The position numbers were made by a program, and so were the translations under genes. Positions 22,797 through 35,644 of a stretch of DNA of 46,844 nt are shown here, piece after piece. The stretch lies in assembly GCA_036376135.1 (NCBI GenBank), contig DASVAW010000054.1, forward strand, positions 1 through 46,844, given 5' to 3'. The notes beneath the pieces are model-generated. The model had not been told where the DNA came from. It did no database searches and saw nothing but the letters and a program-made list of their open reading frames with translations. Every line of letters starts with the position of its first letter. Positions within the stretch are counted from its first letter, which is position 1. The DNA comes from Candidatus Polarisedimenticolaceae bacterium. Its GTDB lineage: Bacteria; Acidobacteriota; Polarisedimenticolia; Polarisedimenticolales; DASRJG01.

Positions 22797-22802
22797 ATTC
22801 TA
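22797..22802 (-). promoter_or_regulatory. -10-like box upstream of the POT transporter
   Basis: Minus-strand TAGAAT preceded by GGGCGC overlaps the stop codon of the PrsW-like gene and lies 22 bases before the first possible ATG (22774). It suggests that the transporter has its own promoter even though it follows the signalling operon closely. Confidence 0.4.
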
Positions 22803-23825
22803 GCGCCCTTGGCCCCTCAATAGGGTCCATTGCCAGGCGTCGGCCGCCCCGGAGCGGATGAACGGGGCGAGCGCGAGCTTTCCGGCCGGTCCGATGCTGC
22901 GCTCGAGGAAGTCCATCTCGGCGAGCTGCTCCCGGGCCTCCTCGTCCGGCTCGGTGGGGAAACCGGCCTCGCGGAGCATCAGGAGCCCCTTGGCGCGCAG
23001 TCCCAGCTCCAGGCGGACCCGGAGGTAGTTCAGGAGGTCCGCGACGATGGGTCCCTCGAAGTGGCCCTTGAGGGAGTCGAGGTAGCGGCCGACCGGGGAC
23101 TCGGAGACCCGCCCGGAGAGGATCAGCTCCAGCATCTCGGTGTCGGCGTCGAACCCGAGGTTGAGCCACTCCCCGACCCGGCGTTCGGCCCATCGGAAGG
23201 CGGCGACGACCGACGCGGGGATCGCGACGGCGATCACCATCGCCGAGACGACCGGCGAGAGGAGGAAGTGGTTGTAGAGGGAGTGCAGGCCGACCGCAGC
23301 GGCGAATCCGGGGAGCCACGCGCCCCCCAGTCCCTTCGGCCGGCGGTCGAAGAGGGTCTTCGTCAGAACCGCGAAGACCGCGGCCGCGCCGGCGTGCATG
23401 ACCGCCGTCCCCACGCCCCGCACCAGCCAGACCGAAAACCCCGCGTCGCGGTGGCTCAGCCAGTAGAAGACGTTCTCCACGAGGGCGAACCCGGCCCCCG
23501 TCGCGAACCCCTGGATCGCCGCGTCGACGGCGAAACCGACCCGGTTCGTCCGCACGATCCAGGCGAGAAGGGCCGCCTTCAGCCCCTCCTCGAGGACCGG
23601 CGCCACGTAGCGGGAGAACAGCGGAGCGGAGATCGGAAGCGCGTCGGCGATCGGCGTCCCCGCCATGCGCGCGACGACGGCGAGCACCGCCCCCATGCCG
23701 ACGGTGTACAGGACGTGGCGGAGCCGCACGAGCTTGTAGGCGTCGAGGGCGGTCAGGGCGAGGAGCAGCGCGAGGACCGGAACGAAGCCTGCGGTGGCGG
23801 AGGCGAGAAGGGCACCCGCCGTCAC
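22800..23825 (-). CDS. PrsW-type intramembrane metalloprotease
   Basis: The 341-residue membrane protein carries the PrsW motif set: EE at residues 79-80 (APVLEEGLKA), EN at 117-118 (FALVENVFYW), His144 (AVMHAGAAAVFA), and GLHSLYNH with His181 and His186. In B. subtilis PrsW makes the first cut in the membrane anti-sigma factor RsiW and releases sigma-W. After about eight membrane segments there is a cytoplasmic tail of about 130 residues. I chose the GTG at 23825, which overlaps the stop of the upstream protease gene as GTGA, so the two are translationally coupled. Its place two genes after an ECF sigma/anti-sigma pair suggests a role in their regulated proteolysis. Confidence 0.85.
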   Translation of the reverse strand: MTAGALLASATAGFVPVLALLLALTALDAYKLVRLRHVLYTVGMGAVLAVVARMAGTPIADALPISAPLFSRYVAPVLEEGLKAALLAWIVRTNRVGFAVDAAIQGFATGAGFALVENVFYWLSHRDAGFSVWLVRGVGTAVMHAGAAAVFAVLTKTLFDRRPKGLGGAWLPGFAAAVGLHSLYNHFLLSPVVSAMVIAVAIPASVVAAFRWAERRVGEWLNLGFDADTEMLELILSGRVSESPVGRYLDSLKGHFEGPIVADLLNYLRVRLELGLRAKGLLMLREAGFPTEPDEEAREQLAEMDFLERSIGPAGKLALAPFIRSGAADAWQWTLLRGQGR

Positions 23826-26746
23826 CGGAGCACGCGCAACGACACCATCCCTTCGTCGCGGGGTTTGGTCCCCTCTTCGAACGCCGAGGCGTAACCGAAC
23901 GACAGGGTCATGTCGAGGCGAGAGAGTATCGTGAAACGCACGTCGATCTGCACCCCGACGTTTCCGATCCTGCGCCGCAGCGCGGAATCTCCCACGTCGG
24001 TCTCGATTCCCGTGGCGAAGATCGAGGTCCTCGCCCACGAGGCGTAGATGCCCGGCGAACCCGCCCGCGCGAATCGCAGGGGCGGGAGGTTCCATTCGGT
24101 CATCACCTTGGCGAAGGTCCGGCCGGCCAGGGCGTTGATCTCCTCGCCCGGGAAGCTCCACCACTCCCGGTACTTCTTCTCGTCGCCGTGGTCGACCCAG
24201 TTGTTCCCGAAGCCTCCGAAGTAGAAGGAGGCCAGCTCGTTCTCCCGGTCCCCCGAGGCGGCGCCCGCCGCGGTGCGGAGCCACACGGAGGAGTTCGACA
24301 GGGGGAGCGCCAGGCCTGCGTCCCAGGTCGCGACGAGCTTGGGGAACATCTCCCCGCCCGCGCGGTCGACCGCGCCGCTCAGGCTCGCCCGCTGCCCCTT
24401 GACGGCGTCCACTCCGCCCAGGGGCGTCCTCGCGTTCGACCACTCGAGGGTCGAGACGACCGAGGCGAGCCGGTCGGGGGCGACGACGTTCTGATAGAAG
24501 GGGAGGCGCTCGAGGTCGCCGAAGTACGCGGCGTCGACGTCGAGGCGGAGCCTGCGGGGACGGTCGTCGACGAGCGTCTTTCCCCAGCCCGCGCCGACCG
24601 ACCAGCCCTTGCGGCTGCGCTTGGTGGGGCCGAACAGGTCGTAGAAGTCGGCGTAGTTGTACGTGGCGCGGGCGCGCCAGTCGTAGCGCTCGTAGTGAAG
24701 GTCGGCGTGCGCCTTCTCGTCGCCGGCGAGGTCGGAGTCGGGGGTGTAGCTCGCGGTGAGCGAGATGCGGTTGAGCATCAGCGGATCCGAGAGGTTCATC
24801 CTCGCGCCGACGCCGATCGATTCCTTGTACCCCTGGAGCACCGGGTAGACCGACTCGACTCCGATGCCGCGTCCGGAGCGGTAGCTCCCCTGGCGCGTCA
24901 CGAGGGTGTCGATCGGGATCTCCGAGGGGGGGCCGACGTTCCAGTCCTTCAGCTCCGGGTGCGTCTCGATCACCTTCGTCCCGAGGAAGGTGATCGCCGC
25001 GAGGTCGGGGGCCTCCTTTCCGTCGAGCTCGACCGGGACGAAGCCGCCTTCGGCGTAACGGATCGCGTACAGCCTCCCGTCCTTCATGGGGAGCGGACGG
25101 AAGAACCCCGTCTCGGCGTTGGTGAGCGCGGAGAGGGCGTCGGTCCTCCAGTTCCAGCGGAGCACGTTCGCGACGCCGGTGTAGTAGGCGCTGCCGACCA
25201 GGTGGTCGCCGTCGGGGGTGAAGACGAAGTCGAGCGGGGCGGCCACGCCGAACCGGCGCTCGGCGACCACATTCGCCTCACCCTTGCGCAGGTCCGCGGT
25301 CCGGTAGAGGCGAAGGACCTGGCCGCCGTCCGCCTCTCCGACGGCGACGGCGAGGAGAGTTCCGTCGGGGGAGACCGCGAGGTTGCGCGGGACCTCGCCG
25401 TACGGGAAGGCCCGGGCGAGCTTCCACTCGGTGTACGGCTCCGGCACGGTCACGACCGAGGCCATGCCGTTGAAGTGCCGGACCCCCCACAACGCGCGCG
25501 TCACGGGATCGAAGGCGAGCTCGCCGAGTCGGGCGTCCTTGAGGAGCGTCCGCGACTCGCCGGTGTCGGGGTCGACCTCGCGCAGGTCGCGGTATTCCAC
25601 GTGGTCGGTGGTGTAGAGGATCTTCCGCCGGCCGGGATCCCAGGCGAGGGAGGTCACCGCATAGAGGATCGGCGCCTTCACGTCGACGATGCGCTTCATC
25701 TCGCCGCCCGCCGCGGGGAGCGAGCCGATGAACGCGACGCTCCCCGGGTACTGCACGGCGAGGAACAGCCGGTCGTCCCGCTCGTCGTAATGGAGACGCG
25801 AGACCGAGCCGAGCGGACGGTCGACGAGATCGCGGCCGTGGGTGACCGGGTAGGTCCGGATCGCCGCGAGATTCTCCGCCTGGAACTCCTTCTCGAATCC
25901 GGTCCACTGCGCCCACGCCTCGTCGAGCGAGATCCCGAAGACCTGCTTGAACTGCGAGGCGTAGTAGCGCTTCGAACCCTCGTCGCGCCGGATCCAGCGC
26001 ACGACGTGGTCGGGGGAACGGGTCAGGGCCAGCCACGAGATGAACCGGGTTCCGTACAGGTACGAGTTCACATCGACCTGGAAGTCGGTCTTCACCCCTT
26101 CGGCGACGAGGCCCAGGGGATCGCGCAGCGCGGCGTTCTCGAGGATCTTCGTCCGGAAGACCATCTCGTCCCAGGACCCCTGGGCGCGTCCCAGGCCGCC
26201 GGCCATCCACGTCTCCGCGAAGACGGCGATTCCTTCGTGGAACCAGCGGGGGGCGGCGTCGCGTGGGGAGGTCAGCCAGAACCAGAGGATCGATTCCGGC
26301 TGCTCGGCGGTGGGGACGACCTTCCCCGCGAAGAGCGTGCGCCAGCGGCGGTCGGCTTTCGTCGCCTTGTCCACGGTCGCGAGGTGGACGAGCTCGTGGT
26401 TCATCAGCCAGTTGAACCGCTCGTTCGGCGAGACCGTCTCGAACTCCATCCCGATCGGCGACGTCTCGAGGAGGAGCACCGTCCGGGGGGTCCCCATCGC
26501 GCTCGCGTTCCCGGAGTCCGAGAAGTCGTTGATCAGGACGGTGACGGGACGGGCGGGTTCCCAACCGAAGACGCGCTGCTGGAACTCGAGGGAGTTGTAG
26601 AAGCAGCGCGCGACCTGCGGGGCGAGGTGGGATTGCAGGGGCGCCCGGTGGACGAGCACGAGCTCGTCCGACTCCAACGTGGCGAGAGCCGCCGTCGCGC
26701 CCGCATCGTTGGCGAGCGCGACGGCGGCGAGAAGGGCTGCGATCAA
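23822..26746 (-). CDS. Exported zinc-protease-like protein with beta-propeller and outer-membrane barrel
   Basis: The 974-residue protein appears to have three parts. Residues about 25-270 are a gluzincin-like peptidase with HELVH (117-121) and a downstream WFHEGIAVFAE whose Glu171 could be the third zinc ligand. Residues about 280-560 look like a TolB-type propeller with repeated strands such as LAWDPGRRKILYTTD and LAVSPDGTLLAVAVG. Residues about 600-974 are alternating strands ending MVSLRVLR, as in a surface-antigen or BamA-like barrel. The only start in this frame after the preceding gene's stop is TTG at 26746, and the resulting signal peptide (MIAALLAAVALANDA) lacks a positive charge. 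It lies 9 bases after the anti-sigma-like gene and overlaps prsW by four bases. Confidence 0.75.
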   Translation of the reverse strand: MIAALLAAVALANDAGATAALATLESDELVLVHRAPLQSHLAPQVARCFYNSLEFQQRVFGWEPARPVTVLINDFSDSGNASAMGTPRTVLLLETSPIGMEFETVSPNERFNWLMNHELVHLATVDKATKADRRWRTLFAGKVVPTAEQPESILWFWLTSPRDAAPRWFHEGIAVFAETWMAGGLGRAQGSWDEMVFRTKILENAALRDPLGLVAEGVKTDFQVDVNSYLYGTRFISWLALTRSPDHVVRWIRRDEGSKRYYASQFKQVFGISLDEAWAQWTGFEKEFQAENLAAIRTYPVTHGRDLVDRPLGSVSRLHYDERDDRLFLAVQYPGSVAFIGSLPAAGGEMKRIVDVKAPILYAVTSLAWDPGRRKILYTTDHVEYRDLREVDPDTGESRTLLKDARLGELAFDPVTRALWGVRHFNGMASVVTVPEPYTEWKLARAFPYGEVPRNLAVSPDGTLLAVAVGEADGGQVLRLYRTADLRKGEANVVAERRFGVAAPLDFVFTPDGDHLVGSAYYTGVANVLRWNWRTDALSALTNAETGFFRPLPMKDGRLYAIRYAEGGFVPVELDGKEAPDLAAITFLGTKVIETHPELKDWNVGPPSEIPIDTLVTRQGSYRSGRGIGVESVYPVLQGYKESIGVGARMNLSDPLMLNRISLTASYTPDSDLAGDEKAHADLHYERYDWRARATYNYADFYDLFGPTKRSRKGWSVGAGWGKTLVDDRPRRLRLDVDAAYFGDLERLPFYQNVVAPDRLASVVSTLEWSNARTPLGGVDAVKGQRASLSGAVDRAGGEMFPKLVATWDAGLALPLSNSSVWLRTAAGAASGDRENELASFYFGGFGNNWVDHGDEKKYREWWSFPGEEINALAGRTFAKVMTEWNLPPLRFARAGSPGIYASWARTSIFATGIETDVGDSALRRRIGNVGVQIDVRFTILSRLDMTLSFGYASAFEEGTKPRDEGMVSLRVLR

Positions 26747-26755
26747 GGAACGGGA

Positions 26756-27760
26756 CTAGTTCGGCTTCGCTTCGTTCTTGAGCTCGTGCTTCATGGCGTC
26801 GCTCTTGAGCGCGTTCTTGAGGGCGTCGCCCGCGGCGATGGAGCGGCCGAGAGACTCGCTCTTGAGGGACTGCCGGAAGGCGTCGTTCTTGAGGGCGAGC
26901 TTCATCGCGTTGCTCGCGAGGACCTCGCGGAAGGCGCCGAGCTTCATGGCGTCGAGGAAGGACTCGTTCCGCATCGCGGTGCGGAGCGCCTCGTTCCCGA
27001 GGATCGTCGTGAGGGCGTCGCTCGTGAACGCGGTCTTGACGTCGCCGACCTTCATCGCGTCCAGCTTCGCCGCCTCGTTCTTGAGGGCGGACTTCACCGC
27101 TTCGGCGGTGGTCGCGTTCTTGAGGGCTTCGCTCCGGACGAACGGGCCGAACGCCGCGCTCTCGAACACCTGGCGGGCGGCGTCGCTCTTCAGCGCGTAG
27201 CGGATCGCGTCGTTGTCGAGGGCGGCCTGGAGATTGTCCGCCGTGACCGACTGCCGGACCGCGTCGACGCGCAGCGCCTGGAGGAAGGCGTCGTTGGAGA
27301 GAACCTCCACGATCGCCGGGTCCTTGACGATCTTGTCGAAGAGCTCGCTCTGGAGGAACGGGTCGGCGCCGATCCCCTCGACCGTGGTCGTCCCGGCGGG
27401 GACCTGCTCGGCCTGGTACTTGGTCGCGGGGCTGATGGTCCCGGCGACGTCCTGTTCGGCAGGGCCCGGTCCGCGGAAATAGACGATCCCGGCCACCGCC
27501 ACCACCGCCGCCGCTGCAAGCCACATGAGCCGGCTGGCTCCGCTCATCCCCGTCGAATGCTGCGTCATCGTCGTTCTCCTCCACTCCCGGTTACCGGGTT
27601 CCTGGTTCGTTGTTCCATACACGGCCCGCGGGGAAAGGTTGGACGCCGAATGGCGCTCGCGGACTTTCTCCATCACCGACGCCGCCAGGTCGGCCGGGGG
27701 TTCGGCGTCGGGGATCTTCGCCAGCAGGGTGTCGAGCTCGGGGTCCAGGGGTTCGTTCAT
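26756..27760 (-). CDS. Membrane anti-sigma-like protein with 20 nonapeptide repeats
   Basis: The 334-residue protein starts at an ATG overlapping the sigma-factor stop (ATGA). Residues 1-60 are cytoplasmic and helical (DPELDTLLAKIPDAEPPADL, then VMEKVRERH), like the short anti-sigma segments found beside ECF factors; no zinc HxxxCxxC motif is present. One membrane helix spans about 78-95 (LMWLAAAAVVAVAGIVYF). Residues 148-329 consist of twenty units of nine residues (two of ten) with consensus [DE]-A-hydrophobic-[KR]-x-x-[LMF]-x-[SN], for example DAFRQSLKS and DAIRYALKS. This region would face the periplasm. I recognise no named family for the repeats. An anti-sigma and sensor role is inferred from position and topology. 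Confidence 0.72.
   Translation of the reverse strand: MNEPLDPELDTLLAKIPDAEPPADLAASVMEKVRERHSASNLSPRAVYGTTNQEPGNREWRRTTMTQHSTGMSGASRLMWLAAAAVVAVAGIVYFRGPGPAEQDVAGTISPATKYQAEQVPAGTTTVEGIGADPFLQSELFDKIVKDPAIVEVLSNDAFLQALRVDAVRQSVTADNLQAALDNDAIRYALKSDAARQVFESAAFGPFVRSEALKNATTAEAVKSALKNEAAKLDAMKVGDVKTAFTSDALTTILGNEALRTAMRNESFLDAMKLGAFREVLASNAMKLALKNDAFRQSLKSESLGRSIAAGDALKNALKSDAMKHELKNEAKPN
26774..27319 (-). repeat. Degenerate 27-bp coding repeat (20 nonapeptide units)
   Basis: The DNA for residues 148-329 of the anti-sigma-like protein repeats every 27 bases. On the plus strand it is seen as recurring words like GCGTTCTTGAGGGCG. Eighteen units are nine codons and two are ten. The units have drifted in sequence but kept reading frame and hydrophobic spacing, so selection on the protein is likely. 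Confidence 0.8.
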
Positions 27761-28335
27761 TTCAGTATCCCCATGGTCTCGAGGCGGAGTCGCAGGGCGC
27801 GGCGGGCCTCGAAAAGGCGGGACTTGACGGTTTTCTCGGGGATCTCGAGCGCCACGGCGATCTCCTGGTAGGAGCCGTCGAGGAAGTGCCGGAGGATGAC
27901 GACCGCGCGGTGTTCCGGGGTGAGCGCGGCGAGCGCAGCCTGGACGGCGCGCTCGAGCTCGCGGCCTTCCATCCGACTTTCAGGACCCTTGTCGTCGTCG
28001 ACGACGTCCTCGACGAGAGGCTCCGGGCGTTTCCTGCGCTGGAGGTGGTTGATCGCCTCGTGAATCGCGATCCGGTAGATCCAGCTGAAGAACCGGTACC
28101 TGGGGTCGAACGTCCCGATCTGCTCGAAGGCCTTGAGGAATGCGGTCTGGGCGAGATCGCGGGCGTCTTCGGGATCGCGGACCATGCGGAGCACGGCGGA
28201 ATATACCGGGCGCTGATGTCGGCGTACCAAGATCTCGAACGCGTCGACATGGCCTTCGATGACCTCCCGGACGAGCGCGGCATCGTTCGCGCCGTCATCG
28301 GGAACTACAGGCCCGGGCCCCGAAGGTTGGCTCAT
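27757..28335 (-). CDS. ECF-type RNA polymerase sigma factor
   Basis: The 192-residue protein has sigma region 2 (DAFEILVRRHQRPVYSAVLR, DPEDARDLAQTAFLKAFEQI, RFFSWIYRIAIHEAINHLQR) and region 4 (LTPEHRAVVILRHFLDGSY, then a helix-turn-helix QEIAVALEIPEKTVKSRLFE), with no region 1 or 3, which defines an ECF factor of the RpoE/SigW type. Its ATG overlaps the STAS gene stop and its stop overlaps the next ATG, both as ATGA. The downstream membrane protein is the likely anti-sigma factor. No matching -35 AAC-type autoregulatory promoter was found with confidence. Confidence 0.94.
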   Translation of the reverse strand: MSQPSGPGPVVPDDGANDAALVREVIEGHVDAFEILVRRHQRPVYSAVLRMVRDPEDARDLAQTAFLKAFEQIGTFDPRYRFFSWIYRIAIHEAINHLQRRKRPEPLVEDVVDDDKGPESRMEGRELERAVQAALAALTPEHRAVVILRHFLDGSYQEIAVALEIPEKTVKSRLFEARRALRLRLETMGILK

Positions 28336-28622
28336 GCCCCCTCGATTTCGAAGATCCGGTCGAAGCCGGAGAACCGGAACACCTCTCGAAGGTGCGGCGA
28401 AAGCCCGCGAAGCCGCAATCCCGCGCCCCGGCCCATCAGCCGCTTCTGGGTCTTGAGAAGCGCGCCGAGCCCGAGGCTCGAGACGTATTCGAGCCCGGCG
28501 AGGTCGAGCGTCGCCGGCCCCTGCACGGCATCGAGGGTTTCCTCGAGCCTCGCGGCGTGGGATGCGTCCAGGCGTCCCGAGAGCGCGATCACGCCTTCCT
28601 CGCTCTGCCGGATCTCGAACAT
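28332..28622 (-). CDS. STAS-domain anti-sigma factor antagonist
   Basis: The 96-residue protein is a single STAS domain: MFEIRQSEEGVIALSGRLDA, then ATLDLAGLEYVSSLGLGALL, where one of the adjacent serines is the usual phosphorylation site. Such proteins bind RsbW/SpoIIAB-type kinases and so free a sigma factor; phosphorylation switches them off. It lies 5 bases after the kinase gene and overlaps the sigma-factor start by four bases. Whether its partner kinase controls this ECF factor or another target cannot be told. Confidence 0.9.
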   Translation of the reverse strand: MFEIRQSEEGVIALSGRLDASHAARLEETLDAVQGPATLDLAGLEYVSSLGLGALLKTQKRLMGRGAGLRLRGLSPHLREVFRFSGFDRIFEIEGA

Positions 28623-28627
28623 GCCGT

Positions 28628-29053
28628 TTACCCCAGTCTTCTCACGATCGTCGTCGTCGCGCGGCGCCCGTCGTGGTCGTAGTCGATTCGGTCCATCATG
28701 CGGCGGATCAGGTGGATACCGAGCCCGCCCGGCGTTCGCTCCGAGAGGGGGGCGTCCACGCGCGGCTCCGGCAGGCTCCGCGGGTCGAAGGCGTCGGCGT
28801 CGTGATCCGTCAGCACGAGGGTCGCCCGCCCGTCGTGGGCGTGCCCCTCGAGGTCGATACCGCCGCTCCCCGCAGGATTGTGGCGGACGGCGTTGGCGAA
28901 AAGCTCCTCGGCGGCCAGGCGCAGGGCGAAACGGTCCTCCTCCCCGAAGCCGCCGGCGTCGAACCACCGGTCCAGCCAGTCGAAGACCGCGCCGAGCGCG
29001 TCGAGACGGCGCTCGAATCGGGTTCGCGGGGCTCGGACCTCGGACAGGGCCAT
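28628..29053 (-). CDS. RsbW-like serine kinase / anti-sigma factor (HATPase fold)
   Basis: The product is about 141 residues. It has the N-box EELFANAVRHN, a G1-like segment TDHDADAFDP, and the G2 box TPGGLGIHLIRRMMDRIDY of GHKL ATPases in the RsbW family. The glycine normally found in the G1 box (DxG) is replaced, which might weaken ATP binding. The start is uncertain: ATG 29053 has AGAGG placed too close, while an in-frame GTG at 29089 has no clear ribosome site. It is followed after 5 bases by the STAS gene, the classic kinase-antagonist pair, here in the order kinase then antagonist. Confidence 0.85.
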   Translation of the reverse strand: MALSEVRAPRTRFERRLDALGAVFDWLDRWFDAGGFGEEDRFALRLAAEELFANAVRHNPAGSGGIDLEGHAHDGRATLVLTDHDADAFDPRSLPEPRVDAPLSERTPGGLGIHLIRRMMDRIDYDHDGRRATTTIVRRLG

Positions 29054-29099
29054 TCCTCTCGTTAGCGGGGGGCGCAAAGAATGCCACACTGGAGCGCGC

Positions 29100-29916: not shown

Positions 29917-32058
29917 TCAGACCGCCGGGATCGGGATCCCCGGCCCCGCGGACCGTCGGTCGCGGGCTCGGGCGGCCAGCGCGTCCTGCACCGCGATGCG
30001 GGTTTCTCCCGCCGCGGGGCGACGACGGACGTAGGAGCCGTCGGGGCGGCAGTCCCAGGCGGACGCGTTGTCCCGACGGTAGGTCTCGATGATCGCCTCC
30101 ACCTCGCGCCGCACCTCGGGATCGGCCAGCGGGACGATCGTCTCGACCCGGTTCTCGAGATTGCGTTTCATCCAGTCCGCCGAGCCGATCAGGTACTCCG
30201 GATCGCCTCCGTTCTCGAACCGGTAGATCCGGCTGTGCTCGAGGAACCGGCCGACCACGCTCCAGACCCTCACCGTCTCGGAGAGCCCGGGCACACCGGG
30301 CCTCAGGCAGCACAGGCCCCGGACGACGAGGTCGATCGGAACCCCCGCCCGGCTCGTCGCGTAGAGCTCGCGCATCACCTCGCGATCCTGCAGCTGGTTC
30401 AATTTGGCGAAGATCCCCGAAGGCCGTCCGGCCCGCGCGTGCTCCGCCTCGCGACGCATGCGGGACACGAACGCGTCACGCATGAAGGTGGGGGCCACGA
30501 GCAGGCGGCGATAGGCGGCGGTCGAGGACGCGCCGGTGAGCTCGTTGAAGATGCGCGCCACGTCGTCGCACACCTCGGGCTCGCACGTGAGCACGCCGAC
30601 GTCCTCGTAGAGTCGGGCCGTTCCCGTGTGGTAGTTGCCGGTGCCCAGGTGGGCGTAGCGGCGAAGCTCTCCCCCCTCCTCGCGAATCACGAGCGCCGCC
30701 TTCACGTGGGTCTTCAGGCGCTCGACGCCGTAGGCGACGTGGACCCCCTCGTTCTCGAGGAACTGCCCCCAGGCGATGTTCGGGGCCTCGTCGAATCGCG
30801 CGGTGATCTCGACGAGCACGGCCACCTGCTTGCCCCGCCGCGCCGCCTCCGCGAGTGCGCGCACGATCGGGGAGTCCTTGCTCGTGCGGTAGATCGTGAG
30901 CTTGATCGCGAGCACGTCGGGATCGACCGCCGCCGACTCCAGGAAACGCAGCACGGAGGAGTCGAAGCTCTGGTAAGGGTGGTGGAGGAACACGTCTCCG
31001 CGGCGGATCTCGTCGAAGAACGCCTCCGGGCTCGCCGTCGCGAGCTCCGCGAGCCGCGGGTGCGCGACGGGACGGTGGGGCGGCAGGTGCAGGTCCGGGC
31101 GGTCCGACACGTCGAGTTGGAGGAGGTCGCTCAATCCCAGGAAGTGGCGCTGCACGAAGACGTCCTGGGGCCCGACCCGCAGCTGGGCGCAGAGCCAGTC
31201 GGCGAGCGCCTGCGGCATGCCGGGCTCGACCTGCAGCCGGACCACCCCCGCGAACTTCCTCGCCTTGAGATCGTCGGCGACCAGGCGGACGATGCGGCCG
31301 GGCTCGAGCAGGTCGTCGTCCAGGCCGACGTCGGCCCGACCGTCGCGCTCGCCCTCCGCTCCACGCGTCACGCGGAACAGGTGGACGCTCTCGGGGGGGT
31401 GCGACGGGAACACGAGGTCCAGGTTCGCCGCGATCACCTGCTCCAAGGGAACGAAACCCGCGCGGGGGAGAGGGATGAAGCGCGGTCGGTTGTTCGGCAC
31501 CTTGACCCGAACGAACCGGGTGCGTGCGGTGCCCGGCTCCGGCAGCTGCACGGCGAGGTTGAGCCCGAGGTTGCTGATGAACGGAAAGGGGTGCTCGGCG
31601 TCGACCGCGAGCGGCGTCAGGATCGGCATCACCGACGCGACGAAGTATCGGCGCACGTGCTCGCGCGCCGAAGCGTCGAGCGCGTCGTGATCGTACAGCG
31701 GGATTCCGGCGTCCTCGAGCGCGGGACGCAACTCGTCGAGCACGCGCAGATCGAGCGTGGCGGTCTGGCGGAGGATCTCGTCGCGGCATGCCGCCAGCTC
31801 CTCCTCGGGGGTCCTGCCGTCGAGCGACCGGCGCCGCGAGCCCTTCTGCACGAGCTTCTTGAGGCCGCTGACGCGCTTCATGAAGAACTCGTCGTGGAGC
31901 ATCCCCATGATCCCCGCGAACTTGACCCTCTCCAGCAGAGGCAGCTCGGGGTCTTCGACGAGCGCGAGCACGCGCGCGGCGAAAGCCAGCCAGCTCAACT
32001 CTCGATTGAAGTACGCTTCGGGCTGGTCGGGACCGATGCCGACCGGCGGCGCGTCCAT
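29917..32058 (-). CDS. ppk1: Polyphosphate kinase 1
   Basis: The 713-residue enzyme reversibly makes polyphosphate from ATP. It shows the whole Ppk1 order: N-terminal YFNRELSWLAF, the head domain with HDEFFMKRVSGLKK, ILTPLAVDAEHPFPFISNL, then the two phospholipase-D-like C-terminal domains. HLGTGNYHTGTARLYED contains the histidine that is autophosphorylated in the E. coli enzyme, and FLEHSRIYRFENGG and YLIGSADWMKRNLE form the second active-site half. The ATG at 32058 has GGGAGA upstream and yields the usual length. It is divergent from the methyltransferase gene at 32139 with 80 bases between. Confidence 0.96.
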   Translation of the reverse strand: MDAPPVGIGPDQPEAYFNRELSWLAFAARVLALVEDPELPLLERVKFAGIMGMLHDEFFMKRVSGLKKLVQKGSRRRSLDGRTPEEELAACRDEILRQTATLDLRVLDELRPALEDAGIPLYDHDALDASAREHVRRYFVASVMPILTPLAVDAEHPFPFISNLGLNLAVQLPEPGTARTRFVRVKVPNNRPRFIPLPRAGFVPLEQVIAANLDLVFPSHPPESVHLFRVTRGAEGERDGRADVGLDDDLLEPGRIVRLVADDLKARKFAGVVRLQVEPGMPQALADWLCAQLRVGPQDVFVQRHFLGLSDLLQLDVSDRPDLHLPPHRPVAHPRLAELATASPEAFFDEIRRGDVFLHHPYQSFDSSVLRFLESAAVDPDVLAIKLTIYRTSKDSPIVRALAEAARRGKQVAVLVEITARFDEAPNIAWGQFLENEGVHVAYGVERLKTHVKAALVIREEGGELRRYAHLGTGNYHTGTARLYEDVGVLTCEPEVCDDVARIFNELTGASSTAAYRRLLVAPTFMRDAFVSRMRREAEHARAGRPSGIFAKLNQLQDREVMRELYATSRAGVPIDLVVRGLCCLRPGVPGLSETVRVWSVVGRFLEHSRIYRFENGGDPEYLIGSADWMKRNLENRVETIVPLADPEVRREVEAIIETYRRDNASAWDCRPDGSYVRRRPAAGETRIAVQDALAARARDRRSAGPGIPIPAV

Positions 32059-32138
32059 CGCGGCTCTCCCTTGGCCCGTGGGCGGTTCGAAACACCTCGT
32101 GCCGAGGAGGATCCTGACGAATCGGTGTCGCGGGCGCC

Positions 32139-33155
32139 ATGACGGAGGACAAGCTCTCCCAAGCGGTCGGACGGGCCCTGGAGGCCCGTCGCCTCGTCCT
32201 CGAGGGGTCGAGGGACGCCGCGGTGCGGCTGTTCGACGGTTTCCGCGAGGGCTGGCCCGGCCTCGTCGTCGATCTGTACGCACGGACGCTGGTCCTGTAC
32301 GACCGCGATGCGTCCGAGGAACGGGCCGGCCGCGTGGCGGCGCTCGTCGCATCCCGGGTTCCCGGCGTGAGGGCGGCGATCCGCAAGGCCCGCCACGGCC
32401 GGGACCCCGCGGAGCGGAACGGGCTCCCGATCCCCGGGTTCGATGGGGCCCCCGACCGCGAGGTCGTCGAGCACGGCGTCCGGTACGCGATCGAGCTGAC
32501 CCTCAACCGGGACGCGAGCTTCTACCTCGACACCCGCGAGCTGCGCCGGCTGCTGAAGGCGGAACTCGCCGGGGCGCGGGTGCTCAACGCCTTCGCCTAC
32601 ACCGGAAGCCTCGGGGTCGCCGCGCGCGCCGCTCCCGCCGCCGAGGTGATCCACCTCGACCGCACGCGCCGCTTTCTCGAGGTGGCGCGGGCGTCGTACG
32701 CCCTGAACGGCTTCGAGGTCCGCCGGCGCGATTTCCGGGCGCGCGACTTCTTCGTGGAGGCCGCCTCGCTCCGGCGCGAAGGGGCGCTGTTCGACGCCGT
32801 GATCGTCGACCCGCCGTTCTTCTCGACCGACGCGCGCGGGACCGTCGATCTCGAGCGGGGGATGGAGCGGCTGCTCAACAAGGTCCGGCCGCTCGTCGCC
32901 GACGGCGGCCGGATCTTCGCGGTGAACAACGGCCTGTTCGTCCCCGGCGCCGCGTACCTCGCCGCCCTCGAGGGAATCGGGCGCGACGGGTACGTGACCC
33001 TCGAGTCGATCGTGCCGGTTCCCGACGACGTCCTCGGCCCCGCGCGGTCCGGCCCGGTCCCGTACCCCGCCGATCCCGCGCCCTTCGCGCACCCGACGAA
33101 GATCGCGGTCCTCCGCGTCCGGCGGAAGGACGCGCGGGGGGCGGGACGGACGTAG
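32139..33155 (+). CDS. RlmI-like SAM-dependent rRNA methyltransferase (no PUA domain)
   Basis: The 338-residue protein matches the RlmI/YccW family of 23S rRNA cytosine-5 methyltransferases in its second and third domains: FREGWPGLVVDLYA, LTLNRDASFYLDTRELRRLL, the SAM motif VLNAFAYTGSLGVAA, IHLDRTRR and the catalytic VDPPFFS. The usual N-terminal PUA domain is absent, which accounts for the shorter length, so the RNA target may differ. There is no cysteine in the DPPFF motif position used by RlmI-type enzymes as far as I can see. It is divergent from ppk1. Confidence 0.82.
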   Translation: MTEDKLSQAVGRALEARRLVLEGSRDAAVRLFDGFREGWPGLVVDLYARTLVLYDRDASEERAGRVAALVASRVPGVRAAIRKARHGRDPAERNGLPIPGFDGAPDREVVEHGVRYAIELTLNRDASFYLDTRELRRLLKAELAGARVLNAFAYTGSLGVAARAAPAAEVIHLDRTRRFLEVARASYALNGFEVRRRDFRARDFFVEAASLRREGALFDAVIVDPPFFSTDARGTVDLERGMERLLNKVRPLVADGGRIFAVNNGLFVPGAAYLAALEGIGRDGYVTLESIVPVPDDVLGPARSGPVPYPADPAPFAHPTKIAVLRVRRKDARGAGRT

Positions 33156-33248
33156 ACTCCGGCCCCGGGGTCGCGTTCCCGGCGGGCAAGGCGATGCTCG
33201 ATCGGGCGGCGAGGTCGGGCCCTCCCAATCCAATCCGGCGAAACGCGG

Positions 33249-33256
33249 TATATAAC
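33249..33256 (+). promoter_or_regulatory. -10-like box TATATAAC upstream of the spermidine-synthase-like gene
   Basis: CGCGG precedes TATATAAC, 21 bases before the GTG start. The surrounding 122-base gap after the methyltransferase is locally AT-richer. No -35 match is found. Confidence 0.45.
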
Positions 33257-33277
33257 AAGGCTCTCGAGGAGCCCCCC

Positions 33278-35644
33278 GTGAGTCGTTCCCGATCTTCCGC
33301 GGCGTCCGCCGCCCGCGATGCCGCACCCGCCCGCGCCGCGCGCGTGGACGGAGTGACCCTCCTCTACGGGGCCGGGATCCTCTTCGGCGCCATGCTGCTG
33401 TTCCTCGTCCAGCCGATGGCGGCGAAGATGCTCCTCCCTTCGCTCGGGGGTAGCCCCGCCGTGTGGAACACGGCAATGGTCTTCTTCCAGGTCGCGTTGC
33501 TCGCGGGGTACGCCTACGCGCACCTGCTCGCGCGGCGGCTCTCGTGGGGCACCCAGGTCGCGGTGCACGCCGTCGTCCTCCTCGCGCCGCTCGCCTTCCT
33601 CCCCATGCGGATCGGCCAGACTCCCCCCGCGGACGGCGCCTCGCCGGCGTTCTGGGTGCTCGGGGCGCTGACGCTCTCGATCGGCGCCCCGTTCGTGGTG
33701 GTGTCGACGACCGGCCCGCTCCTCCAGCGCTGGTACGCGGCGAGCGGATCGGCCCGCTCTGAGGATCCGTATTTCCTGTACGCGGCGAGCAATCTCGGGA
33801 GTCTCGGGTCGCTTCTCGCGTATCCGCTGTTCCTCGAGCCTCGCCTGGCGGTCGCGACCGGCGGCTGGGCGAGCCAGACCGGGCTGTGGGCGATCGGCTA
33901 CGTCGTCTACGTCGTCCTGGTGGGGGCGTGCGGCGCGGTGTTGTGGCGGGCGCGCCGCGGCGAAGCGCCGGCGGTCCCCGCGCCCGTCGCGGGGGTCACG
34001 GCCCGGGAGGACCTCAAGACGAGGGCGACGTGGGTCGGGCTCGCGTTCATCCCCTCGAGCCTCATGCTCGGGACGACCCTCACGCTCTCCACCGACGTCG
34101 CCGCGGTGCCGCTGCTGTGGGTGCTGCCCCTTGCCGTCTACCTCGCGACGTTCGTCGTCGCGTTCTCGTCGTGGGGCCCCGCGGCCACGCAGGCGTCGCG
34201 GTGGGCGCTCCCGCCGCTCGTGCTCGTGCTCGTCTGGACGATGTGGACCACGGCCCGCCCCGATCCGACCGTCGGGGTCCCGCTGTTCCTCGGGGTGCTC
34301 GCGGCCGCCGGGCTCGCCGTCCACGGTCGCCTGGCCGCGATGCGGCCGCCGGTCGAGCGGCTCACGGGGTATTACCTGTGGATCTCGGTCGGCGGCGCGC
34401 TCGGCGGGATCTTCTGCGCCCTGGTGGCGCCGATGATCTTCACCTCGGTCGTCGAGTACCCGATCGCCCTGGGGGCCGCCTGCCTCGCGCTTCCCGGCGC
34501 CGCGGCGCGCGGGCGCGGCGTCGAGCGCCGCGCCCGCGTGATCGACCTCGTGGCTCCGGCGCTCCTCGCGATCGCGCTGGCGTTCGCGATCCTGCCGTTC
34601 CTGAAGGAGATCACCGGGGACCTGGTCTCGCACATGCGCAACGTGGCCCTGTTCGCGATCCTCGCGGCGGCGGCGTTCGTGCTGCGCCCGGTGCGGTTCG
34701 GGCTCGCCGTGTTCGTGTTGGTCTTCATCGGGCAGACCTGGCGCACGAGCGTGGGCGACATCGAATATTCGGCCCGGACGTTCTTCGGCGTGATGCGCAT
34801 CACGAAGGTGAACGGCATCGACTTCGAGGTGAAGAGCGGACCCGAGGCGGGACTCAAGGCGAACATCCCGTTCCACACGCTCTACCACGGCACGACGCTG
34901 CACGGCGCACAGCTCATGCACCCGCAGCTGCGTTACCGCGCGACGACCTACTTCCACGTCAAGGGGCCGCTCGGGCACGTGTTCCGCACGTACCGCCGGC
35001 AGTCCATCCTCGACGAGGTCGTGGTGGTGGGCCTTGGAGTCGGCTCGATCGGGGCGTACGCCGAGCGCGGCCAGCGCTTCCGGTTCTACGACATCGACCC
35101 GGAAGTGATCACGATCGCGCGGAACCCCGAGTGGTTCACCTACCTGCGCGACGCGGAGGCGCGCGGCGCGAAGATCGAGACGGCCGCGGGGGACGGTCGC
35201 AAGCTCCTCGAGCGGGAGCCCGACGGCAGCATCGGCCTGTTGATCATGGACGCCTTCAGCTCCGACGCTCCGCCGCTGCATCTCATGACGCGGGAGGCGA
35301 TGGACGTCTACTTCCGCAAGCTCCGCCCGGACGGCGTGCTCGCGGTGAACGTCAGCGTGGAGCACTTCGACTTCGTGCCCGTCCTGGCGGAGATCGCGGC
35401 GGCGACCGGGCGCACCGGGCTGTTCTGGTTCGACCTCGCCCAGCTCTCCGAGCAGGACCGCGTGGACGGAAGGTCCTCCGCGCGCTGGGTCGTGCTGGCC
35501 GAAAAGCCGGCGGTGCTCACCCCCCTGATGCTCGGCGGCGGCGGCTGGCAGCCCCTCGAGGGGTTCCGCGAGCCCGCGCGTTCGCGCGAGCTTCTCTGGA
35601 CCGACGACTTCGCCAGCCCGCTCTCGATCCTCCGCCGCGGGTAG
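33278..35644 (+). CDS. Membrane-fused spermidine-synthase-like protein
   Basis: The 788-residue protein starts at GTG 33278 after GAGGAG. Its first 480 residues form about ten to twelve membrane segments (ILFGAMLLFLVQPMAAKMLL, VWNTAMVFFQVALLAGYAYA, and others). The last 250 residues are a spermidine-synthase-type aminopropyltransferase fold with VVVVGLGVGSIGAYAERG (dcSAM/SAM site), FYDIDPEVITIA and LLIMDAFSSDAPPLHLMTRE. Such fused proteins are common in many phyla but their product and the use of the membrane part are not known. No SAM decarboxylase gene is nearby, so polyamine synthesis is unproven. Confidence 0.82.
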   Translation: MSRSRSSAASAARDAAPARAARVDGVTLLYGAGILFGAMLLFLVQPMAAKMLLPSLGGSPAVWNTAMVFFQVALLAGYAYAHLLARRLSWGTQVAVHAVVLLAPLAFLPMRIGQTPPADGASPAFWVLGALTLSIGAPFVVVSTTGPLLQRWYAASGSARSEDPYFLYAASNLGSLGSLLAYPLFLEPRLAVATGGWASQTGLWAIGYVVYVVLVGACGAVLWRARRGEAPAVPAPVAGVTAREDLKTRATWVGLAFIPSSLMLGTTLTLSTDVAAVPLLWVLPLAVYLATFVVAFSSWGPAATQASRWALPPLVLVLVWTMWTTARPDPTVGVPLFLGVLAAAGLAVHGRLAAMRPPVERLTGYYLWISVGGALGGIFCALVAPMIFTSVVEYPIALGAACLALPGAAARGRGVERRARVIDLVAPALLAIALAFAILPFLKEITGDLVSHMRNVALFAILAAAAFVLRPVRFGLAVFVLVFIGQTWRTSVGDIEYSARTFFGVMRITKVNGIDFEVKSGPEAGLKANIPFHTLYHGTTLHGAQLMHPQLRYRATTYFHVKGPLGHVFRTYRRQSILDEVVVVGLGVGSIGAYAERGQRFRFYDIDPEVITIARNPEWFTYLRDAEARGAKIETAAGDGRKLLEREPDGSIGLLIMDAFSSDAPPLHLMTREAMDVYFRKLRPDGVLAVNVSVEHFDFVPVLAEIAAATGRTGLFWFDLAQLSEQDRVDGRSSARWVVLAEKPAVLTPLMLGGGGWQPLEGFREPARSRELLWTDDFASPLSILRRG

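Follow-up and report, generated by a model that had tools for sequence, protein, structure and literature searches.

An ECF sigma factor linked by conserved gene order and a promoter-like motif to a repeat protein, a peptidase-propeller-barrel protein and PrsW

FecI is an ECF sigma factor with a narrow regulon. The FecI-FecR-FecA logic (PMC8144685, PMC9249621) joins an ECF sigma factor to a one-pass anti-sigma factor and to an outer-membrane barrel made from the sigma factor's own target promoter. In Bacillus subtilis, SigW has a broad antibiosis regulon, and PrsW acts on the anti-sigma factor RsiW (PMC10202637); work on toxin fusions has also put PrsW forward as a protease that releases toxins (PMC3482391). 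In Bordetella, the PP2C, STAS and kinase genes btrU/btrV/btrW lie in one locus with the ECF sigma factor BtrS and a separate, secreted anti-sigma factor, BtrA, and serve type III secretion (PMC7498569).

The locus described here comes nearest to these systems in its logic and has elements in common with each of them. With SigW-RsiW-PrsW it shares an ECF sigma factor, a PrsW-family protease and, in relatives, a one-pass anti-sigma factor with an RsiW-like fold, but it adds a repeat protein (REP), a peptidase-propeller-barrel protein (PEP) and partner switching. Unlike FecIRA, it has neither a TonB receptor nor a FecR domain (no Pfam match to either was found in P0004, P0005 or family members); its barrel protein is PEP, and its protease is PrsW. 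Unlike the Bordetella locus, it contains PrsW, REP and PEP. No description joining PrsW, partner switching and such repeats was found in the open-access literature, in line with the preliminary description, which knew of no system that combines these parts. A system built on an ECF sigma/anti-sigma pair and regulated proteolysis, in which two or more of the protein families have no Pfam model, is apparently undescribed. The features of the locus are given below for the window, meaning the whole stretch of 46,844 nucleotides that was analysed.

28628..29053, minus strand: RsbW-like serine kinase/anti-sigma factor, 141 aa (PF13581 HATPase_c_2, 4e-22)
28332..28622, minus strand: STAS anti-sigma antagonist with the serine pair S48-S49 (PF13466 STAS_2, 1.7e-18; TIGR00377 over cut-off)
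27757..28335, minus strand: ECF sigma factor, 192 aa (PF04542, 3.2e-18; PF08281, r4_2, 5.1e-16; TIGR02937 over cut-off)
28306..28330, minus strand: promoter-like site 1, CCAACCTT-N13-TGTA, at the place that, in relatives, immediately precedes the start codon of sigma
26756..27760, minus strand: P0004, shortened anti-sigma domain plus complete REP, 334 aa (REP family, 1.2e-21)
27662..27739, minus strand: remnant of the anti-sigma domain (ASD), P0004 residues 8-33 (positions 43-68 of 68, E=0.0057)
27618..27642, minus strand: promoter-like site 2, CCAACCTT-N13-TGTA, 74 nt before the REP start ATG at 27568
26756..27568, minus strand: REP proper from M65 (residues 65-334), with the SD sequence AGGAG at 27580-27576 and a promoter-like motif upstream
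about 27535-27476, minus strand: REP membrane helix, one pass
27442-27434, minus strand: REP juxtamembrane element GTI
23822..26746, minus strand: PEP, with signal peptide, metallopeptidase, propeller and predicted barrel (model pLDDT 88.7)
26398-26384, minus strand: HELVH motif of PEP (H117, E118, H121)
26236-26234, minus strand: E171 of PEP, the downstream Glu of HExxH...E
22800..23825, minus strand: PrsW-family intramembrane protease (PF13367, 2.9e-17, over cut-off)

The genes for RsbW, STAS, the ECF sigma factor, P0004, PEP and PrsW form a single minus-strand run at about 22800-29089, joined by 5 bases (28627-28623), ATGA (28335), ATGA (27760), 9 bases (26755-26747) and GTGA (23825). The six genes, coordinates and joins of the preliminary description were all reproduced, and its identification of the kinase, the STAS protein, the ECF sigma factor and PrsW is backed by Pfam. 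Its start for RsbW, GTG 29089, is replaced here by the more likely ATG 29053, which lies behind GAGAGGA. The characterization of the run as a self-contained operon holds for regulation, but the run has no clear border at the stated coordinates: PPK1 and an endonuclease/exonuclease/phosphatase (EEP-family) gene lie upstream on the same strand, spaced 43-47 bases, and an MFS gene follows about 37 bases downstream. None of these flanking genes is a conserved neighbour in the gene maps of relatives. Elsewhere in the window, the C-terminal part of a plus-strand frame at 31757-35644 resembles, by eye, a fused MFS/spermidine-synthase-like membrane protein, and the N-terminal part of this frame is probably non-coding.

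A search for conserved gene order, which had been set as a test of the preliminary description, found it in at least five phyla. From 504 PEP-related stretches in the genome collection, 80 were kept, and the fuller order in relatives is PP2C, RsbW, STAS, sigma, anti-sigma (about 255 aa), REP, PEP and PrsW. PEP is followed by PrsW at 68 of 76 loci and preceded by REP at 51 of 56. The sigma factor is present at 23/33 loci, STAS and RsbW each at 21/32, and sigma, STAS, RsbW, REP and PrsW occur together at 17 of 30; these counts refer to loci with enough flanking sequence among the 80 closest to the query and describe that set rather than the whole family.

The window's sigma factor contains sigma-70 regions 2 and 4 without region 3 by Pfam, the arrangement that marks ECF factors. 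The RsbU/RsbV/RsbW type of partner switching is represented in the window by both an N-box HATPase kinase and a serine-bearing STAS protein. In RsbW, the N-box residues E49, E50 and N54 and the GGLG region are conserved (12 relatives), and in STAS the phosphorylatable serines S48 and S49, together with G51, are invariant in 12. There is no PP2C phosphatase beside the window locus, and 13 PF07228 (PP2C) matches lie elsewhere in the genome. PP2C is found upstream in 14 of the 27 relatives having enough sequence, and in Ignavibacteria it lies downstream instead. Partner switching here might act on some target other than sigma control.

P0004 had been described as a membrane anti-sigma-like protein. 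A complete membrane-anchored repeat protein is indeed present, but the sigma-binding domain is cut to its last third. Relatives have a full N-terminal ASD, separate or fused, while P0004 keeps only the last 26 of the 68 model positions (43-68), and this is the only ASD match in the window. An anti-sigma function of P0004 is doubtful in this window, and binding of sigma to P0004 residues 1-60 may fail here, given the truncated domain. The probable start of REP is residue 65, downstream of a promoter-like site of its own, and RsbW may be the remaining direct brake on sigma. Three ASD-only matches elsewhere in the genome were considered as the missing anti-sigma partner; each lies near an ECF sigma factor of its own, and they are probably unrelated pairs.

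The anti-sigma and repeat proteins were modelled by separate ASD, ANTI and REP profiles. Members of the REP family have one membrane helix, then the conserved stretch GTI..A.RY.AEQI, then repeats, which in 44 of 59 proteins are best described by a lag of 9 or of some multiple of 9. In the window REP the period is 9 (z=6.1, best among lags 1-30), and the 27-base periodicity at the DNA level is largely worn down. The repeat sequences vary freely (FQELLKDAA, NADFANLMA and DPAFSGLLR among others), and the period itself has exceptions: about 10 in several alphaproteobacteria, 11 in one Eisenbacterium, and NAS triplets in one betaproteobacterium. In the latter, a fused anti-sigma/REP protein (L071:362-1450), a run of NAS triplets stands in place of the repeat region, and the spacer sequence seems to be replaceable. 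In some other relatives, for example at L055:9102-9738, the REP gene is a long 27-base tandem array of many similar units, which suggests that array length changes by recombination. Matches of REP to Pfam DUF826, NblA and ribosomal families were set aside as low-complexity repeat artefacts. Regular REPs also match the DP-type short-helix repeats of STI1/HOP (PF17830) weakly, at 7.5e-10 (L104) and 2e-5 (L093) for the whole protein, but no single stretch passes and low-complexity repeats inflate such scores, so that the likeness is a lead only.

A full ASD, by the 68-position model, is fused to REP in 12 relatives and separate in others, and the fusions tie the repeats to sigma control. In an AlphaFold model of one fused member (L093), the anti-sigma domain is helical and confidently predicted, and there follow a membrane helix and about 20 repeat helices, each of 7 residues and recurring every 9; for the repeats the model is moderate (pLDDT 75-82), with few sequences behind it. 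The anti-sigma part matches RsiW of the SigW-RsiW crystal with a probability of 0.99 and a Z of 7.0, at a loose rmsd of 9.4. Anti-sigma proteins and REPs have a further element in common: GT[IMVL] follows the membrane helix in 23 of 26 anti-sigma proteins and 54 of 58 REPs, as against 9 of 366 background ORFs, at a distance of 12-19 residues in the former and mostly 9-12 in the latter. This shared element is the best candidate for a PrsW recognition site common to both.

PrsW is present as a sole copy in the window's genome. Its EExxK, FxxxE, H144 and H181 are invariant in the six compared, as expected of the protease in a SigW-RsiW-PrsW system. It differs from the protease of B. subtilis in being operon-linked and in carrying a C-terminal extension, and it reaches 30.9 of the 225 bits required by the NCBIfam PrsW equivalog model. 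The extension, which follows the membrane core and is about 125 residues long (window 22800-23200), is itself conserved. An unlinked M50 site-2 protease is also encoded in the genome (4.4e-56).

PEP carries H117, E118, H121 and E171 invariant in 34 relatives, as in HExxH...E zinc metallopeptidases. No Pfam family matched it over cut-off, and among peptidase families BSP came to 0.023. In the AlphaFold model (pLDDT 88.7, pTM 0.86) a helical peptidase domain bears the HExxH helix, a TolB-like propeller spans residues 299-580, and about 16 long strands are predicted over residues 629-972. A C-terminal 16-strand barrel (residues 629-974) is predicted from these strands and from an Omp85_2 match that is below cut-off (0.02-0.09); POTRA was not matched. 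Residues 307-580 superpose on TolB of the Tol-Pal system (Z about 23; rmsd 2.7-2.8 A for 242-246 residues) at about 16% identity, but the PEP propeller is fused to a metallopeptidase and a barrel, and a propeller fold shows no function. The list from the structural comparison was filled by propellers, so that the peptidase and barrel domains were barely probed and the lack of a peptidase match there carries no weight, and a sequence search of solved structures with PEP gave weak propeller matches only.

A dyad search found CCAAC...GTA upstream of both sigma and REP. In 1.21 Mb of loci, CCAAC[CT]T-N13-16-GTA occurs 58 times in the sense direction, compared with 5 opposite-strand occurrences and 7 in the backward control. 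It lies at the sigma start in 26 of 33 loci and before REP in 19 of 54, where about 0.04 would be expected for each. Two exact CCAACCTT-N13-TGTA sites lie in the window, where 0.03 would be expected even with one mismatch allowed, and the strict motif has three exact matches in the whole 4.4-Mb genome. Since two of these three lie here, the sigma factor's main target looks like its own locus. The role of the motif as the promoter recognized by this sigma factor is putative; the motif and its near-confinement to the locus are read from the DNA itself. The preliminary description would have counted a separate promoter with unrelated expression for the protease genes against itself; REP-PEP-PrsW does have its own promoter-like site, but the site appears to be that of the same sigma factor.

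A larger sigma regulon was considered and rejected, none being visible. The relaxed motif shows no excess in the window's whole genome (8 matches versus 10 in controls), and in 12 relatives that have the sigma factor, matches elsewhere than in the locus are no more frequent than in controls and lie within genes or ahead of dissimilar ones. In three alphaproteobacteria that lack sigma, the counts are 0, 1 and 0. This near-confinement differs from the broad regulon of SigW (PMC10202637). A GGAAC-type ECF motif at the operon start was likewise dismissed, as nothing common was found in 26 upstream regions. In single relatives, CCAACTTT-type sites lie before an RpoS-like sigma factor (L153), a sigma-54-activator-like gene (L152) and a response-regulator-like gene (L158), all named by eye; these sites are not conserved and are near control frequency.

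In most sigma-side copies (19 of 26, judged by eye), GTA is followed by N3 and then by the start codon. This spacing would imply either a leaderless sigma mRNA or a transcript that starts just inside the gene and serves only the genes downstream. In the window, site 1 lies in the orthologous place, but another codon stands there instead of the start codon; translation of sigma now begins at the upstream ATGA, and the first 12 or so sigma codons run through the site. Being inside the reading frame, site 1 cannot start a sigma mRNA with the present start codon. A similar arrangement is found at another acidobacterial locus (L100), where the site lies inside the REP frame, without a recognizable full ASD.

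We consider it on balance probable that REP-PEP-PrsW is an envelope machine of three proteins under the control of a dedicated, self-directed ECF sigma switch. The gene order, the fusion to REP and the shared promoter-like motif link sigma to these three genes, and the reading draws on what can be taken from sequence: besides gene order, the ASD-REP fusions, the shared GT element, the intact catalytic motifs and the near-confinement of the motif. REP would be anchored in the inner membrane and reach into the periplasm as a string of short helices, and PEP would place a barrel in the outer membrane, with its TolB-like propeller and zinc-peptidase domain in the periplasm. Sigma would be held by a one-pass anti-sigma factor, separate or fused to REP, of which the window retains a remnant, and RsbW/STAS/PP2C partner switching could provide a second input. 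Freed sigma would transcribe mainly from two promoters, that of its own gene and that upstream of REP-PEP-PrsW. Probable substrates of PrsW, and perhaps of PEP, are REP and the anti-sigma factor, which would be cut at the common GT[IMV] beside the membrane, and in this way the state of the machine at the outer membrane may feed back on sigma.

More tentatively, the self-addressed sigma factor could drive a trans-envelope rod-and-protease device, in which REP is the rod, PEP the barrel, and PrsW cuts the membrane anchor of the rod, so that proteolysis would read the mechanical or chemical state between the two membranes and pass it on to sigma. If true, the device would represent a novel form of surveillance from the outer to the inner membrane, built from families outside Pfam. 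The system as a whole would assign PrsW a conserved and linked role beyond the Firmicutes, bring partner switching together with regulated proteolysis on a single ECF sigma factor, and introduce two families without a Pfam model, a nonapeptide-repeat rod and a peptidase-propeller-barrel. The promoter motif makes the regulon directly testable.

The mechanism of the preliminary description ran differently: the repeat-bearing anti-sigma factor senses the envelope, PEP acts as the site-1 protease and is followed by PrsW, and sigma is freed for a wider regulon, with partner switching as a second input. Such a stress-sensing pathway would fit the ASD-REP fusions, the common GT element, the M50 protease in the genome and the precedent of PrsW acting on RsiW (PMC10202637), and the conserved regulatory unit that it presumes is borne out by gene order, by these fusions and by the RsiW-like fold. 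Its direction, from proteases to a freed regulon, is weakened, in that no promoter set is visible beyond the locus, the only clear promoter-like sites of the sigma type being the two within it, and in that the window ASD is truncated and seven genomes carry REP and PEP in line with no match to the anti-sigma profile, which represents a weakly conserved family. We regard this pathway as rather doubtful. Of the seven genomes, six are alphaproteobacteria with PrsW also in line, and one is a member of the Terriglobia with PrsW nearby on the other strand. The alphaproteobacterial loci favour an order of machine first and sigma second; REP-PEP-PrsW looks like the machine and sigma like its control.

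The same six genomes could also speak for PrsW-dependent export or display, in which PrsW releases REP from the inner membrane, the PEP barrel captures or trims it at the surface, and the repeats are a displayed or shed product, the sigma module setting expression only. The repeats do vary in sequence and period (9, 10, 11, NAS) beside a conserved TM-GTI region, and the proposal of PrsW as a toxin release protease (PMC3482391) is of the same kind. We nevertheless consider export or display unlikely: the 12 ASD-REP fusions tie REP to sigma control, and beyond the TM no display or secretion signal was found. That unrelated genes, regulatory and housekeeping, simply lie close together here by chance or as loose neighbours in a GC-rich genome, as the tight packing of the same-strand flanking genes might suggest, is extremely improbable in view of the same order in at least five phyla, the shared promoter motif and the fusions.

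The 80 kept PEP loci are dispersed over acidobacteria, alpha-, beta- and gammaproteobacteria, Ignavibacteria, Balneolaceae, Krumholzibacteriota, Eisenbacteria, Zixibacteria and KSB1, the names being those of record titles, mostly of metagenome bins. One locus with PEP-PrsW (L045) is titled Bifidobacterium breve and is almost certainly a mislabelled or contaminated bin. Long PEP matches were found in six of 60 relative genomes, the window's own included, and in about 12 of 199 genomes drawn from its phylum, where weaker rows are mostly propeller matches. This patchy spread, about 12/199 within the phylum together with several other phyla, poses an evolutionary question. In the window's nearest relative, a member of the same family (L017:6865-10779), part of the sigma-REP unit occurs twice: a 120-aa frame that ends in a sigma-like C terminus lies between two REP genes, and the locus contains three copies of the CCAAC motif.
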